Assembly (NCBI GenBank): GCA_009783555.1
Contig: WRDH01000031.1
Span: 1-34,736 of the forward strand
Direction: 5' to 3'
DNA length: 34,736 nucleotides
Source: Oscillospiraceae bacterium
GTDB taxonomy: Bacteria > Bacillota > Clostridia > Oscillospirales > Oscillospiraceae
The notes under the pieces are model-generated. The model made no database searches and was not told the DNA's origin. It worked only from the letters and a program-made list of their open reading frames with translations. The position numbers and the translations under genes are program-made. How positions within the stretch are numbered: the stretch's first letter is position 1; each line of letters opens with the position of its first letter. This document shows, one piece after another, positions 3,406 to 32,622 of this stretch.

Positions 3406-4749
3406 ATGCGAAAAAGATATTCAAAAGCACCGTATATTTTCATAATAATGCTCATGCTGTTTACGGCTTTTGTCGGCTGGGCGGCTGTAAATCATTTTAG
3501 TAACGGAATAGAATCATACGAAGACCTGTCATCGGAAGCGAGCACGTTTTTCCAAACACGACCGGTGCAAACGTTCACGAATTCAACCGCAAATGCAGAT
3601 CCATATATTTACTATGACCACCGCGATGATGCTCTGCACCTTTTTGAGACACCCGAAGGTTTTACAATGGTTAGTCATTCAGAAATCTGGGATGAATATA
3701 TGCTTATACAGTTGTATCATGAACTCATGCTCAATACACATGGAGATGAGATAGAGTTTTTGCACGAGGTAATCGTCTACCCGCATGAGGAAGAGGATGG
3801 TCATGCTTTGGCTACATTTTCTCAGGGAATCACAATCATAGAGTTCTTTATCCAATTTCCCGCACTGCCTGAAGACTTTGCAATTCCATTTCCTCAGGAT
3901 ATAGGCACAATCAACCTTTTTGGCGGTGATATAAATACAACTATTGAAAGCATGGCTAACAGTCTTAGTCATGAATACGGGCATTTGTATACGTTTTATT
4001 ACATGTTTAACGCTGAAAGAAACGAAAACGAATCAAACGGGAATGGCTCTTTGAGTGATACAGTGTATGCAAGATTAAGAGAAGCTGCAAGGTTTAACTT
4101 AATTACAAACGCAAGCCCCGGCGAAACATACCTGCAAGAACGTTTCCGATATCTTATTGAAATAGCTGCCGAGGACTATGTACAGCTTATGGGTTCTCCA
4201 ACCACTCGTCAGATCGTGGATTTTGTTGATGTACGGCAAATCGTCAATGGTGCTGAGCGTCCTGAAAGCATCAGAAACGCAAGAAACGCGTTCCCGCAGG
4301 AAAATCTGATGATACCGCTGGCTAATGACGCGCCGGGATTAAAGGATTATTTCTTTAGTTTTATAAGCACCGAACCACGAATGCCCGTAGAGGAAAAGCA
4401 AGAAGTTATTTTACAGATCAGAAGAAATGATATAGAGTTCCATTTAGTATCAGGATATCGCACTTTTACTCATTACGCGATAACATGGAATACGCCATAT
4501 AACGATGCAATTTATACGCTCGTATGTTATGACCCTGATGACTACACAGGATGGGGTATACCGATAAAAACCGTCCGACCCGGACAAAACGCATCGGCAG
4601 TAGTTGGTGAATATGTTGTCGAGTGGGGCAATCAGGTTGAATCACTGGATGACGGTCTCGCAACAGGAACAAAGGTGTTCTTAGTAGTAGCAATGCTACA
4701 TGACGGCACATTATATCTTTCAGAAAAGCTGGAGTATACTTTTTCATGA
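3406..4749 (+). CDS. Membrane-anchored HExxH putative metalloprotease
   Basis: The protein has 447 residues; GAGGAAGG precedes the ATG closely. A basic N-terminus and one hydrophobic segment at about 10-28 act as a signal anchor, so the rest should lie outside the membrane. HEYGH at 189-193 is the zinc-binding HExxH motif. IEIAAEDYVQ at about 251-260 offers Glu256 as a possible third ligand, as in gluzincins. The last ~115 residues look like a beta-sandwich of fibronectin type III kind. I do not recognise a named family, and the protease activity is inferred from the motif alone. The stop overlaps the start of the following lipoprotein gene by 4 nt (ATGA), so the two are probably translationally coupled and work at the same surface. 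Confidence 0.75.
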   Translation: MRKRYSKAPYIFIIMLMLFTAFVGWAAVNHFSNGIESYEDLSSEASTFFQTRPVQTFTNSTANADPYIYYDHRDDALHLFETPEGFTMVSHSEIWDEYMLIQLYHELMLNTHGDEIEFLHEVIVYPHEEEDGHALATFSQGITIIEFFIQFPALPEDFAIPFPQDIGTINLFGGDINTTIESMANSLSHEYGHLYTFYYMFNAERNENESNGNGSLSDTVYARLREAARFNLITNASPGETYLQERFRYLIEIAAEDYVQLMGSPTTRQIVDFVDVRQIVNGAERPESIRNARNAFPQENLMIPLANDAPGLKDYFFSFISTEPRMPVEEKQEVILQIRRNDIEFHLVSGYRTFTHYAITWNTPYNDAIYTLVCYDPDDYTGWGIPIKTVRPGQNASAVVGEYVVEWGNQVESLDDGLATGTKVFLVVAMLHDGTLYLSEKLEYTFS

Positions 4750-5570
4750 GAAAACACACAATAGTCGTTCTATTATTAATATTGTTGTCACTTTTATTTC
4801 TGTCGGGCTGTATAAACATCGAAATTGAGGCAGGGATTGATGAACATTTTACATCATATCTTATTTATCACATAGAGCTTGATGCAGGAGAACTTGATGA
4901 GCGTTACCAAAATTCTTTAAGAAGAGCACTTAATGAAATCGGGTGGAACTATCAAGAAGAGCATGATTTTGTTGTTTCTTTTAATACAGATTCTATGCCT
5001 TATGTCTTAACGATGACACGGAGAATTGAAAACAACAGCTTTGAGCAAGCGTACCGGTCGCTTGAAGCTTTGCTGACAAATGAGAATATAACCCCGTTTA
5101 TGACAGTAGGCATGGCATTCGAGCATTCTGAAAGACAGAGCAGATATATATTTGAAGCAATGACTGATATCCCGCAAATAATGCGCTTATCTAATGCAGA
5201 AGAATTGACACCGGAGTTACAGCAGCAGCTTGAAGATGCCATTGCAACAGGAGATGGTTCTGTTACTATAAAAATCCCCGTAAGTGAGCTGGTGAGTTCA
5301 TCTCATTCAGTGAACACAGAAAGCAACCGTGCCATAATGAAAGTACCGCTTAGCTATACAAGCCAAACGGAACTTGAGTTATCAGGGATAGTTAATATAA
5401 TCGAAGACGGTGTAATCGGAGGTTTATTAGGAGAAATTATTGATGAGCAATATAAATTAAGAAACAAGATTGTTTTTATATGTGCCATAGTTTTTGCTAT
5501 ACTTCTGTTGATAATGTTGATGATTATTCTTGTGAGAAAGAGTAAATCAAGGCGTTATAATGGTATGTAA
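4746..5570 (+). CDS. Lipoprotein with C-terminal membrane anchor
   Basis: The protein has 274 residues. The N-terminus is a lipoprotein signal peptide ending in LSGC, with Cys22 as the lipid-modified residue. A soluble domain of about 215 residues follows, then a hydrophobic segment at about 242-264 and a basic tail (RKSKSRR) that should stay in the cytoplasm. This plan, an exposed domain held by lipid at one end and a helix at the other, is seen in the LppM/DUF3153-like lipoproteins of Gram-positives; I treat that only as a resemblance. It overlaps the upstream HExxH gene by 4 nt and is a likely partner or substrate of it. Confidence 0.8.
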   Translation: MRKHTIVVLLLILLSLLFLSGCINIEIEAGIDEHFTSYLIYHIELDAGELDERYQNSLRRALNEIGWNYQEEHDFVVSFNTDSMPYVLTMTRRIENNSFEQAYRSLEALLTNENITPFMTVGMAFEHSERQSRYIFEAMTDIPQIMRLSNAEELTPELQQQLEDAIATGDGSVTIKIPVSELVSSSHSVNTESNRAIMKVPLSYTSQTELELSGIVNIIEDGVIGGLLGEIIDEQYKLRNKIVFICAIVFAILLLIMLMIILVRKSKSRRYNGM

Positions 5571-28397: not shown

Positions 28398-29051
28398 TTA
28401 GGAGTCCATCTCATTCAACCCGCGAATAACTGTTTCGTACCACATATCCGGGTCTATTCTGTTTTCAAGGGCAAACATTTTTCGAGTTTCGTAAATTGCC
28501 CTCACAAACTCTTGAATATTTGCAAAGCATTCTGTTGGACGTTTATGAAAAGCGTAAGGGCGTATAGCATAAGGCTGCTCCTGTTTAACCTGTAATCCAA
28601 TAGGATACTTTTGCGCTCTTGATGTAAGCTCCCATAGGTTCTTTAAATAAACGTTGTTAATTCTAAACCCGTGCATTGTAGGCGTATATCCAAAGACTAA
28701 ATATTTAGCATGCAGTTTATTAGGATGTGTATACACTTCTCTATAAAATCCATCAAAGTTTGCTAAATCGAAAGCAGGGTTATTTGTATAATTCCAACAT
28801 TTAATCTCCATATCATGCTTGACACCGTTAATATTAGCAGTAAAGTCCGGAAAAACCTGAGAGCTTTCATTTGCTTCCAGCTCTAGTCCGTTATCTGATA
28901 ACCATTGGGGAATCCATTCCTGTACACAGTTGCCGATTATATCATTGGATTTACTTATCTTAGGAATACCTGCGATGGTTATCGTTATTACACCTAATTC
29001 GTTCTTAATATCTCTAACGGCTTTATCATAGAGTTCTTCCAATGAGTTCAT
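28398..29051 (-). CDS. Type II restriction endonuclease (PD-(D/E)xK)
   Basis: The protein has 217 residues and lies 35 nt after the 5-methylcytosine methyltransferase stop, in the same direction, as in a type II R-M operon. VFPDFTANINGVKHDMEIKC gives a PD-(D/E)xK core: Asp69, then Glu82 and Lys84. The N-terminus is helical (LEELYDKAVRDIKNELG) and the C-terminus has no named motif. It resembles the NgoBV/NlaIV group (GGNNCC) in size and core layout as far as I can recall, but I cannot confirm the specificity from sequence. Alternative: a restriction enzyme of another PD-(D/E)xK family. Confidence 0.8.
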   Translation of the reverse strand: MNSLEELYDKAVRDIKNELGVITITIAGIPKISKSNDIIGNCVQEWIPQWLSDNGLELEANESSQVFPDFTANINGVKHDMEIKCWNYTNNPAFDLANFDGFYREVYTHPNKLHAKYLVFGYTPTMHGFRINNVYLKNLWELTSRAQKYPIGLQVKQEQPYAIRPYAFHKRPTECFANIQEFVRAIYETRKMFALENRIDPDMWYETVIRGLNEMDS

Positions 29052-29086
29052 ACAAATACTCCAATCTCTGAAAAAGGTAGTCGTTT

Positions 29087-30385
29087 TCAGCTTACAAGCA
29101 ACTCTGAGCGAGTAATCGCTTTTAACAAGCTGTCTGCTACGAAAGTAACAACAGGCACTACAACAGTGTTTCCTAATAAGTCATAACCCAACTCTTTTTC
29201 AATCTCAAACTTGAAGCTTTCCGGATAGCCGAACAATCGCAAGCCCTCGCGCAATGATAGATTTCTTATTCCAATACCGTCAACGACATATATATGCTTC
29301 ATATCCATTGCCACAAGCGTAGGTGCACATTTATTAGGATCGAGTATTTTATTGACTTCAAAAGACATCTTACCCGTTACGATATTATAGCCTAGTGGCA
29401 ATGTTTCATCTTGCTTACGCCCATTTTCCACTTTCTTCTTTGGGTGTTCCATTTTAAGATATTTCTTCTCAACAAGATCAGCAAGCAACTTTTCAAGATT
29501 ATTATGGTCATAGAAAGAGCGGATATTTTCGAGAGTCAAAGGCATCCCGTCCATCCAGTCGATGCCATATTGCTCTGCCCATTTCTTTTTTCTACGTTCT
29601 TTTAGTATCTGATTAAGGAGGGTTTTTTGTTCTTCGCTGACTTTACCTTTTAGTTCAATATCCCAGCTATGAATATTGTCATATCCACCACGCTTATCTT
29701 TTATTGCTTTGCCATATAAATCATCGGTAGTATAATGGTTCAGCAACAATTTGACAAAATCGCTATCGGATGTTACCAGTCCTTTTTCAATTATTTCCCC
29801 AACAGATGAAGTTATCAGAGGCGGACTTTGGAGATTTGGAGAACTGTCTTTCGTACCAACAATATAGATGCGTTTCCGCTCTTGAGGCACACCAAAATTC
29901 TTTGCATCTAAAACCTTCCAAGAAATGTTGTAGCCTAATCCATTAAGACGGTCTAATATCGTTGTTAGTGTACGTCCGACCTTATCCTTTCTATCAACTC
30001 TGTCATGTGTAACAAGACCTTCGACATTTTCCAATATAAAACCCCTCGGCTTCTTCTCGCTGAGTATCCGCTCAATCTCAAAGAACAGTGTTCCTCGAGT
30101 GTCAAGAAACCCAAGTCTTCTTCCGGCTGACGAAAAAGCTTGACAGGGGAAACCGGCAAGTAAAAAATCAAAATCCGGGATTGAAGAAGACGAGATTTGA
30201 GTTATATCCCCGCTGACTTTTTCGTTCGGATGATTCTGTTGTAAAATTCTTATTGCATGAGGTTTAATCTCTGAAGTTAATACACAAGTTGTTTTGTATC
30301 CATGCTTTTTACAGGCAAGCTCAAAACCTTGCCTGATTCCACCGATACCTGCAAATAAATCTATGAACCTAATTGTGTCATCCAT
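29087..30385 (-). CDS. DNA (cytosine-5-)-methyltransferase
   Basis: The protein has 432 residues from the ATG at 30385, which has GAGG 6 nt upstream; in-frame codons further upstream are less well placed. C5-methyltransferase motifs occur in order: I IDLFAGIGGIRQGFE (8-22), IV GFPCQAFSSAG (catalytic Cys81), VI ENVEG (119-123), VIII QERKRIYIVG (168-177), IX/X RNLSLREGLRLFGYPESF and LLGNTVVVPVV (403-413). The target-recognition region lies at about 200-380 and is long. It protects host DNA from the nuclease encoded downstream. The promoter is well formed, and the gene is divergent from a 76-residue unknown gene. Confidence 0.95.
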   Translation of the reverse strand: MDDTIRFIDLFAGIGGIRQGFELACKKHGYKTTCVLTSEIKPHAIRILQQNHPNEKVSGDITQISSSSIPDFDFLLAGFPCQAFSSAGRRLGFLDTRGTLFFEIERILSEKKPRGFILENVEGLVTHDRVDRKDKVGRTLTTILDRLNGLGYNISWKVLDAKNFGVPQERKRIYIVGTKDSSPNLQSPPLITSSVGEIIEKGLVTSDSDFVKLLLNHYTTDDLYGKAIKDKRGGYDNIHSWDIELKGKVSEEQKTLLNQILKERRKKKWAEQYGIDWMDGMPLTLENIRSFYDHNNLEKLLADLVEKKYLKMEHPKKKVENGRKQDETLPLGYNIVTGKMSFEVNKILDPNKCAPTLVAMDMKHIYVVDGIGIRNLSLREGLRLFGYPESFKFEIEKELGYDLLGNTVVVPVVTFVADSLLKAITRSELLVS

Positions 30386-30427
30386 AGAAAACCTCATTAA
30401 TACACAATATATAGTAATCCTCTGAAT

Positions 30428-30457
30428 AATATAACACAATACCTATGCAGTAGTCAA
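30428..30457 (-). promoter_or_regulatory. Promoter of the restriction-modification genes
   Basis: On the minus strand TTGACT (30457-30452) and TATATT (30433-30428) are 18 nt apart, about 43 nt before the methyltransferase ATG. Confidence 0.55.
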
Positions 30458-30894: not shown

Positions 30895-31290
30895 TCATTT
30901 TACGGACTTGCGAATTGTCAGCAGGTTTTTACCGTCTTCATAGCGGTACTCCACGGAGTCCATAATCTTTTTTACCATAAAGATTCCGAGACCGCCGATT
31001 TCTCGTTCCTCTGCGCTAAGTGAGATGTCGGGATCGTCTTTTTCCAGAGGATTGTAGGGTTTACCCTTGTCCTCAAACTCAATAACGACTTCATCACCGA
31101 CGTTTATGCGTACTAACACATCTCCAACTTCCGGACTATAAGCATAATGCGCTATGTTGACGAAAATCTCCTCGACAGCGATTGTAAATTGAGTCTGTAG
31201 TTTCATAGGTAAAGCTTCAAGTTCATTCGCTATAAAATCCAAAACCGTATCAAGATTTTCTGTTTTTGCATCTATCGACAACTCTTTCAT
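30895..31290 (-). CDS. Anti-sigma regulatory factor, RsbW/SpoIIAB-like HATPase
   Basis: The protein has 131 residues and is a single GHKL (HATPase_c_2) domain. The ATG at 31290 follows AAAGGAA at 12 nt; a TTG at 31320 would add 10 residues. The Bergerat motifs are complete: N-box VEEIFVNIAHYAY (Glu40/41, Asn45), G1 FEDKGKPYNP (Asp74, Gly76) and G2 GGLGIFMVKKIMD (99-111). Such proteins phosphorylate STAS anti-sigma antagonists and bind a sigma factor in turn. No STAS or sigma gene is visible; they may lie outside. The neighbouring ABC ATPase carries a related but degenerate domain, and the two genes point the same way about 260 nt apart. Confidence 0.9.
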   Translation of the reverse strand: MKELSIDAKTENLDTVLDFIANELEALPMKLQTQFTIAVEEIFVNIAHYAYSPEVGDVLVRINVGDEVVIEFEDKGKPYNPLEKDDPDISLSAEEREIGGLGIFMVKKIMDSVEYRYEDGKNLLTIRKSVK

Positions 31291-31397
31291 AATAAAGACT
31301 ATTCCTTTCGTATTGCTCAAGACGTAAACTTAATAAAACAACGTACATTTCCACATTATTTACAGTACACACGGTATCTATAAATACTATCTCTCAT

Positions 31398-31518
31398 CAT
31401 TGCGAACCGTCCGCAGACGGTGTGGCAATCCATTTTTGTGGTATAATTAAGATATTTTGCTTTGTGCGTTTGCACAAATACATGGATCGCCACGTCGCTA
31501 TGCTCCTCGCGATGACGG
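31398..31518. repeat. Family B inverted pair, copies 3 and 4
   Basis: Copy 3 (31398-31432) and copy 4 (31483-31518) face each other. Copy 3 has core CCGTCCGCAGACGG. Copy 4 reads TGGATCGCC...CTCGCGATGACGG with the family tail TTTGTGCGTTTGCACAAA at 31461-31478. About 50 nt of AT-rich sequence separates the copies. The whole looks like a small non-coding element between the ABC ATPase and anti-sigma genes. Confidence 0.85.
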
Positions 31519-31548
31519 GTGTGTACAGCAACCCACATTACTATTAAA

Positions 31549-32622
31549 TCACAGTATAGCAATAATGGTATTTTTGCCATCGGCATATTCGTGCCTGATT
31601 TCTTTTGCGTTGCCCTGCACCATCATAGCGGATAAATCATCATCGGTGGTTTCCAGCGCATTAGACGAATCACCGTTGTAGGATACCGACAGTTCATAAT
31701 TGCCGAGTTTTTCTGAAAAGCTTAGATTAAGCACGCAAGCACTATATATCGGAGTGACTATATTTATAACCAGTTCCTCCGCCAGCAGTTGCAGCTTGTT
31801 TGCAGTCTTTCTCTCTATTGCGTGGCGGAAGCAGAAGTTCTCAACGCCTCCTAGCATTTCCATATAATCGAAGTCACTGCTTGTTACTTCGTAACTGTAT
31901 GAACGGATATTGTAAATAAACGCCTGTGTTTTCGGCTTTTTTGGCGACGTGAATATTTCTGAGGGGCTGCCGTCCTCATATATGCCGCCTTCGTCCATAT
32001 AAAACACGCGGCTCGACACATCCCGGGCGAAATCCATTTCATGTGTCACCACAACCATAGTCATGCCCGATTTTGCAAGGCTTCGTATAACTGCCATAAC
32101 CTCACTGACCATTGTCGGGTCAAGAGCGCTGGTCGGCTCATCGAACAGTATTACCTCCGGCGACATTGCAAGGCAACGGGCAATCGCCACACGTTGTTTT
32201 TGACCGCCGGATAATTGGCGCGGAAAATGACGGGCGCGCTCGCTAAGTCCGACTGTTTTTAGAAGCTCCGCCGCTTTCTCTTCCGCTTCTTTTTTGGATA
32301 TACCCAGAAGCTTAATCGGTCCTGCAGTGAGGTTGCCCATGACATCCAAATGGCTAAACAGTCCGAAGCTCTGGAAGACCATACCCATTCTGCGTCGTGC
32401 GGTGTCAATGTTTTTCTTCGTGATTTGTTCACCGTCGAAGAACACCTCGCCATCCGTGGGCGGATCGAGGAAGTTTATTGCCCGCAGAAAGGTGCTCTTT
32501 CCCGTCCCGGACGGACCGATGATAGAAATTACCTCGCCCTTTTCGATGTCTGTGCTTATGTTTTGAAGAATCACATTATCTCCGAAACGTTTTTCAAGAT
32601 TTCTTACAGAAATAATACTCAC
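31549..32622 (-). CDS. Amino-acid ABC ATPase fused to degenerate anti-sigma-like HATPase domain
   Basis: The GTG at 32622 has GGAGG 9 nt upstream and overlaps the permease stop by 4 nt. Residues 1-240 are a polar amino-acid (GlnQ/HisP-type) ATPase: Walker [10 protein letters not shown] (36-44), Q-loop FQSFGLF, signature LSGGQKQR (137-144), Walker [15 protein letters not shown]-loop VVTHEM. Residues about 250-357 are extra. [13 protein letters not shown] aligns with the N-box of the anti-sigma protein encoded at 30895-31290, [12 protein letters not shown] with its G1 region, and [13 protein letters not shown] with its end YRYEDGKNLLTI. The G1 aspartate is replaced (Tyr in my alignment) and the G2 glycines are lost, so this copy should not hydrolyse ATP. 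It may sense or bind a signalling partner and tune uptake. The domain relation is my alignment by eye. Confidence 0.88.

Follow-up and report, generated by a model that had tools for sequence, protein, structure and literature searches.

The locus analysed here raises the question of what a domain related to the kinases of partner switching does at the end of an amino-acid importer ATPase. Within the window, that is, the whole 34,736-nucleotide stretch of DNA that was analysed, the gene for a GlnQ-type ABC ATPase with a C-terminal pseudo-RsbW domain (31,549–32,622, reverse strand) has a GTG start and encodes 357 residues. Its start overlaps the stop of a gene on the same strand (34,736–32,619) that joins three SBP_bac_3 stretches (PF00497, E value of 1.7e-51) and a BPD permease domain (PF00528, E value of 1.6e-14) in one chain, and whose 5′ end is open, the window edge being the contig end there. 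The next recognisable gene downstream of the ATPase in the window, separated from it by a 258-base spacer (31,291–31,548), encodes a stand-alone RsbW-like kinase (30,895–31,290, reverse strand; ATG start, 131 residues) with N, G1 and G2 boxes, which matches HATPase_c_2 (PF13581) with an E value of 2.3e-21 in a Pfam scan run from an upstream TTG (141 residues). RsbW-type proteins are anti-sigma kinases. No inverted repeat was found in the spacer, and a repeat consensus had no match in the window; by eye, part of the spacer (31,380–31,530) resembles an interspersed repeat. On the 3′ side of the kinase gene, two ORFs of 450 and 217 residues (28,398–30,439, reverse strand) resemble, by eye, a cytosine methyltransferase and restriction-enzyme pair.

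The nucleotide-binding domain of the ATPase (residues 1–238; 31,909–32,622, reverse strand) is of the kind found in GlnQ/ArtP/TTHA1159-type amino-acid ABC ATPases and shows 53 and 55% identity with the importer ATPases 4u02 and 4yms in a Foldseek search. Walker A, Walker B, LSGGQ and H-loop residues are invariant in 49 aligned sequences (alignment A3, drawn from the 73 sequences of A1, see below), so that the ABC motifs are intact, and the full-length model has a pLDDT of 96.0. The protein scores 286.8 bits against a cut-off of 379 for the NCBIfam GlnQ equivalog. Chains of the GlnQ/ArtP/TTHA1159 type stop near residue 240, whereas the present one is about 119 residues longer and is accompanied by SBPs fused to the permease. 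As the similarity to GlnQ (NF007027 match) covers residues 3–238 only, 119 residues are extra; the figure of about 105 given in the original prediction corresponds to the core of the additional domain (residues ∼253–357).

The identity of this tail (residues 239–357; 31,552–31,908, reverse strand) was addressed by structure prediction and profile comparison, both of which agree with its earlier assignment as an RsbW/SpoIIAB-like (GHKL) domain. Its AlphaFold model (pLDDT of 93.6, pTM of 0.86) has SpoIIAB, RsbW, UsfX, SigF-anti-sigma, SiaB–SiaC and Rv1364c entries as its matches at ranks 1–21 of a Foldseek search of the PDB, the best being 1tid_A (E value of 9.1e-6, TMq of 0.67). Taken alone, the window tail matches HATPase_c_2 with an E value of 0.038 and 14.4 bits, under the Pfam cut-off of 27.4, and homology therefore rests on profile–profile comparison. 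An hhalign alignment of 73 tails (A1, composed of the window tail and those of 72 of 80 related loci, L073 and L086 having been removed for odd tails) with 10 stand-alone kinases (A2) extends over 110 columns with a Prob of 98.2 and an E value of 3.4e-14, and the three pairs of sequence blocks that the tail had been said to share with the downstream kinase are in register in it. Among the 73 homologous tails, 33 match HATPase_c_2 at E≤1, any other family being matched by two tails at most. Searched against PDB sequences, the tail profile gives no match at E≤1; the kinase profile A2 retrieves RsbW (6m36, E value of 1.2e-12) and anti-sigma-F chains. The tail has in common with RsbW and SpoIIAB (PF13581) the fold, the order of elements, the N-box glutamate, the G..(N/D)PL loop and the closing strand pair with its asparagine. 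MetN-type ATPases likewise carry a C-terminal domain of regulatory size on an amino-acid importer ATPase. A MetN-like (ACT/NIL-type) regulatory domain is nevertheless rejected as an identity for the tail: none is among its 50 listed Foldseek matches, and MetN fits this ATPase badly when entire chains are superposed (r.m.s.d. of 9–11).

Unlike RsbW and SpoIIAB, the tail is fused to an ABC ATPase and falls under the Pfam cut-off, has no G1 aspartate, shows a deletion before G2 and usually lacks the N-box asparagine. Residues E41, N45, D74, G99, G100 and G102 are invariant in the 10 stand-alone kinases. At the corresponding G1 place an aspartate is found in none of the 73 tails, the G1 glycine being present in 58. 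The N-box asparagine, a Mg-ATP ligand, occurs in 10 of 73 tails including that of the window (N287), and 31 tails have a glutamine at that place. In the profile alignment the 12 kinase residues up to the first glycine of G2 have no counterpart in the tails, the rest of G2 changes from GLG in the kinases to DLS in the window tail, and a GG or G.G near G2 is seen in 6 of 73 tails. The reported loss of the G1 aspartate and of the G2 glycines thus holds. Elsewhere the domain is well conserved: the two glutamates of the Glu–Glu pair (E282–E283 in the window tail, 31,774–31,779, reverse strand, with N287 after it) are kept in 70 and 71 of the 73 tails, the asparagine or aspartate of the NPL loop in 62 and the closing asparagine in 57. 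Fold, profile and motif evidence together support the view of the fused domain as a pseudo-kinase. The tail is an RsbW-type domain without ATP-site motifs that has kept the fold for meeting STAS proteins, and we infer that ATP binding itself has been lost.

A recent duplication of the neighbouring kinase as the source of the tail is ruled out by a tree of every fourth A1 row (19 ABC tails), 20 kinases, 6 MATE and 2 SDF domains, in which the 19 sampled ABC tails form a clade of their own (support of 98/88). The fusion of ABC ATPase and pseudo-RsbW domain is old and widespread. It is present in 80 of 80 related loci (A1 score above 60 bits), a proportion that is partly due to selection because, of at least 592 in a scan of genome contigs, these are the 80 that rank highest in full-length similarity. 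They span several phyla, with labels that include Oscillospiraceae, Treponema, Bacteroidetes, Chlorobiaceae, Gammaproteobacteria, Acidobacteria, Lentisphaeria and more, and in two of them (L089 and L104) SBPs, permease, ATPase and tail are all in one chain. The tail is also matched in 11 of 60 relatives' genomes, the window's own counted, and in 15 of the 148 genomes of a Bacteroidota set assembled around L054 (labelled Bacteroidales), the genome at its centre counted. A one-off fusion or an assembly artefact is ruled out by the 80 loci and by the 11 relatives' genomes with the domain. Searches of open-licence PMC full text for the fusion or for transporter-linked partner switching listed no description of such fusions.

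The original prediction tied the fused domain to partner switching with STAS proteins and PP2C phosphatases, and both gene neighbourhoods and co-occurrence support this tie. Flanks of up to 6 kb a side were searched with local kinase, STAS and SpoIIE profiles. At least one of the three genes lies near the fusion in 25 of the 80 loci (STAS in 19, SpoIIE in 15, kinase in 14) and in 0 of 14 GlnQ-type control loci without the domain (one-sided p value of 0.009), a comparison that leans towards the test set because neighbours of these loci supplied the sequences for the STAS and SpoIIE profiles. The controls come from five fusion-bearing genomes, and one is only 3.5 kb long. All ORFs were used, so that L037, L044, L056, L099, L101 and L109 are included; a first neighbour survey had left out L001, L018 and L021 (copies of the window) and L025 and L032 (fragments). 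L128 (genome G074), where ATPase and tail are in two frames, was scored as lacking the domain. In the five control genomes and the window's own, a partner gene is near only 3 of 9 fused loci (L127, L129 and the window).

Where partner genes adjoin the fusion, their arrangement is informative. A STAS gene lies directly downstream of the fused ABC gene (<100 bp, same strand) in 7 of the 80 related loci and in 7 of 15 Bacteroidota-set loci, the latter from 14 genomes; in L049 it is of a STAS-APH form. A kinase gene follows within 400 bp in 8 of these 14 loci. SpoIIE is in the same operon as the fusion in L034, L035, L068, L149 and L150, and in L149 and L150 SpoIIE (truncated where the examined stretch ends), SBP-permease, ABC, STAS and kinase genes stand in a row on one strand. 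The fusion operons of L034 and L068 encode Cache/PDC and HAMP sensor phosphatases. Among cultured relatives, Acetobacterium dehalogenans (L065) has kinase and SpoIIE genes in the neighbourhood of its fusion, and in Oligosphaera ethanolica (L078) a STAS gene is the direct downstream neighbour. All 33 STAS-only ORFs of less than 150 residues in the loci collected carry a phospho-Ser-type motif of the form (S/G)S(A/S/L/V)G(L/I)R. No sigma-factor family was found among 72 chosen proteins from such loci.

RsbW proteins form complexes with STAS antagonists that are broken by phosphorylation, as is established for SpoIIAB/RsbW. Since the tail has an RsbW fold without ATP-site motifs, and since the partner gene most often found directly downstream is a STAS gene, the tail is best read as a STAS dock. 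In the reading that we prefer, with a probability of roughly 0.55, the tail would serve as the dock of a STAS protein that is switched by phosphorylation, and this protein would act on the amino-acid importer itself instead of through a sigma factor. The tail would be the putative receptor of an RsbV/SpoIIAA-like STAS protein. The stand-alone RsbW-like kinase (31,290–30,895) would phosphorylate this protein and so lower its unphosphorylated form, which SpoIIE-type phosphatases with extracellular Cache sensors would raise again by dephosphorylation. We infer that the transporter would be bound by the unphosphorylated STAS protein only, which may then alter activity or assembly of the importer, the output being without a sigma factor.

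Two roles for the pseudo-kinase had originally been offered, a docking site for a STAS protein or a partner for the intact kinase. RsbW and SpoIIAB are homodimers, and a heterodimer of the tail with the intact RsbW-like kinase might tune kinase activity at the membrane; the kinase gene is the next recognisable one in the window, and in L066 it follows the ABC gene at a distance of 2 bp. L066 is, however, the only one of 95 loci with a kinase gene directly downstream of the fused ABC gene, against 14 of 95 with a directly downstream STAS gene (<100 bp), and the tail belongs to a separate clade rather than being a recent kinase copy. Such a heterodimer appears improbable, and the data lean towards the STAS docking site.

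No STAS or SpoIIE gene adjoins the fusion within the window; in its own genome they are on other contigs. Both C39 and C7 carry STAS genes with the phospho-Ser-type motif, a SpoIIE gene being located no more than about 5 kb away in each case, and the SpoIIE protein of C39 has dCache and HAMP domains. The window kinase is the only match of the A2 profile at E≤1e-15 in this genome. With the kinase in the window and STAS and SpoIIE on C39 and C7, all partner-switch parts are therefore present.

The same parts could also run in the opposite direction, with the transporter as the sensor: substrate flux would change the ABC dimer, and the pseudo-RsbW domains would capture or release a STAS protein that acts elsewhere, on a sigma factor, a cyclase or another regulator. 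In favour of this, a small number of kinases can be shared by several fusions: genome G102 has two ABC fusions and one A2-type kinase, and G305 has three ABC fusions, one MATE fusion and two kinases. Other possible outputs are a GGDEF protein next to SpoIIE in L175 and, in L122, a RelA/SpoT-type gene (3612–5487, reverse strand) that directly adjoins the STAS and RsbW-like kinase genes. The Cache/PDC-HAMP phosphatases already present in the fusion operons of L034 and L068 and in the own genome (L174) make a second sensor unnecessary, however, and the 72 proteins scanned include no sigma-factor family. A sensing transporter is thus rather unlikely, and control passing from the partner switch to the transporter is favoured over the reverse.

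Co-occurrence across genomes bears on whether the tail is still tied to its presumed partners. Of 298 genomes of the own phylum (the own excluded), the ABC fusion is present in 5, each of which belongs to the 9 that carry the A2 kinase subfamily at E≤1e-15 (p value of 7e-9). One of these 5 is G074, counted as a fusion genome though its ATPase and tail are in two frames, which leaves 4 intact fusions. Fusion and kinase are on different contigs in G102, G193 and G266 and 62 kb apart in G074. In the Bacteroidota set (147 genomes, the centre excluded), the fusion is found in 14 genomes. Kinases at E≤1e-40, a cut picked after the list was seen, are present in 6 genomes, all of them within the 14 (p value of 2e-7). 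At E≤1e-15 a kinase is found in 12 of 14 fusion genomes and in 83 of 133 others (p value of 0.07), an association that is not significant because 96 of the 148 genomes of the set have such kinases; the other 2 fusion genomes, G418 and G531, have no kinase match at this threshold. Since the genomes are related, all p values given here overstate independence. In 28 of 30 further genomes, selected from the 80 loci and mostly outside Clostridia, a kinase is found at E≤1e-8 (none in those of L080 and L082), which is weak evidence given the high base rate of kinases (96 of 148 at 1e-15 in the Bacteroidota set).

The tail might instead be a mere dimerisation or stability tail of the ATPase whose relation to partner switching is historical. 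MetN, MalK and PotA ATPases, all in the Foldseek list, carry unrelated C-terminal domains, and 55 of the 80 loci have none of the STAS, kinase and SpoIIE genes in the flanks examined. Against this stand the enrichment of neighbours and the co-occurrence with the kinase subfamily, together with the presence of comparable domains in MATE and SDF transporters, for the most part in the vicinity of these partner genes. In the light of these, a purely structural role appears improbable.

These other transporters emerged from the A1 and A2 searches, which also match MatE or SDF proteins of 542–668 residues with an RsbW-like domain. The domain is C-terminal and mostly degenerate in MATE proteins of L113 (3896–5683, forward), L114 (3602–5350, forward), L115 (285–2039, forward), L118 (8573–10360, reverse), L119 (4723–6495, reverse), L056 (8808–10814, forward), L177 (753–2492, forward) and L178 (1092–2852, forward). 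It is N-terminal and degenerate in SDF sodium:dicarboxylate symporters of L116 (4193–5821, forward) and L117 (4697–6394, forward). In L115, L116 and L117 it is detected by this study's profiles only. The domains of L113–L119 and L056 keep the Glu pair, and the G1 aspartate is absent save in L119, whose MATE fusion retains both this aspartate and the asparagine. For all of these eight loci but L116 a SpoIIE, STAS or kinase gene is found in the same stretch, and SpoIIE adjoins the MATE fusions of L113, L114, L115, L118, L119 and L177 and the SDF fusion of L117.

Full-length matches to a MATE-domain profile, in ORFs of 584–623 residues, occur in 6 of 299 genomes, every one of which also has the A2 kinase; 5 of the 6 had supplied sequences to the profile. 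The sixth, G088, which lies outside the profile-building set, carries two MatE fusions. Downstream of one of them, in the same run of genes, are two dCache-HAMP-SpoIIE genes and a gene for an RsbW-like protein. Taken together, ABC or MATE fusions are found in 8 genomes besides the own, each of which is one of the 9 with the kinase. In the tree the ABC tails (98/88), MATE domains (80/55, weak) and SDF domains (100/98) form separate groups, which suggests that the three kinds of carrier gained RsbW-like domains by separate fusions. It is quite possible that the unrelated ABC, MATE and SDF carriers each gained a degenerate RsbW plug for a phospho-switched STAS protein, and that a sigma-free branch of partner switching thereby regulates transport after translation in bacteria of many lineages.

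Known systems provide partial parallels for a STAS protein that acts on a transporter. In MlaFB, the STAS protein MlaB binds the ABC ATPase MlaF, using a C-terminal extension of the latter, and affects its stability and assembly (PMC7367683). The MlaF extension differs from the present tail in having about 25 residues and in not being of RsbW type, and the sections of that article at hand describe no kinase or phosphatase with it (PMC7367683). In the SiaABCD system of Pseudomonas aeruginosa, SiaC binds and activates SiaD, so that the output is not a sigma factor (PMC8457831); this output is a diguanylate cyclase, and SiaC binds the stalk of SiaD, which is no pseudo-kinase domain. A SiaB–SiaC entry (6kko) is among the fold matches of the tail. 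A switch known for the control of gene expression may act here directly on transporters. If this is true, the reach of partner switching would widen beyond gene expression to transport itself, with uptake and export under its direct control, and STAS, RsbW and SpoIIE genes without an adjoining sigma factor would gain a testable role. A widespread, conserved set of RsbW domains without ATP-site motifs, lodged in transporters, would also make it possible to test cleanly what a ‘dead' RsbW does.

Further gene associations were observed around these loci. MFS transporters with long N-terminal extensions lie near SpoIIE, STAS or RsbW genes in L131 (1337–4327, forward), L125 (8101–11169, reverse) and L174 (6531–8378, forward), the last in the own genome; the RsbW-like profiles have no match in these three proteins at E≤1e-3. 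Genes for 5′-nucleotidases (Metallophos and 5_nucleotid_C) recur near the fusion, as in L035 (8070–9695, forward) and similarly in L076 and L102, and in the own genome a 5′-nucleotidase gene (L175:3708–5330, reverse) is located between SpoIIE and STAS. Fusions of a STAS domain with an APH-type or TCAD9 domain are encoded in L049 (7121–8677, forward), L027 (1952–3397, forward), L077 (1023–2207, forward), L079 (191–1372, forward), L108 (3–1124, forward), L127 (75–2441, reverse) and L123 (6583–8931, reverse), near fused ABC genes or STAS, kinase or SpoIIE genes, and are possibly STAS proteins with a kinase of their own.
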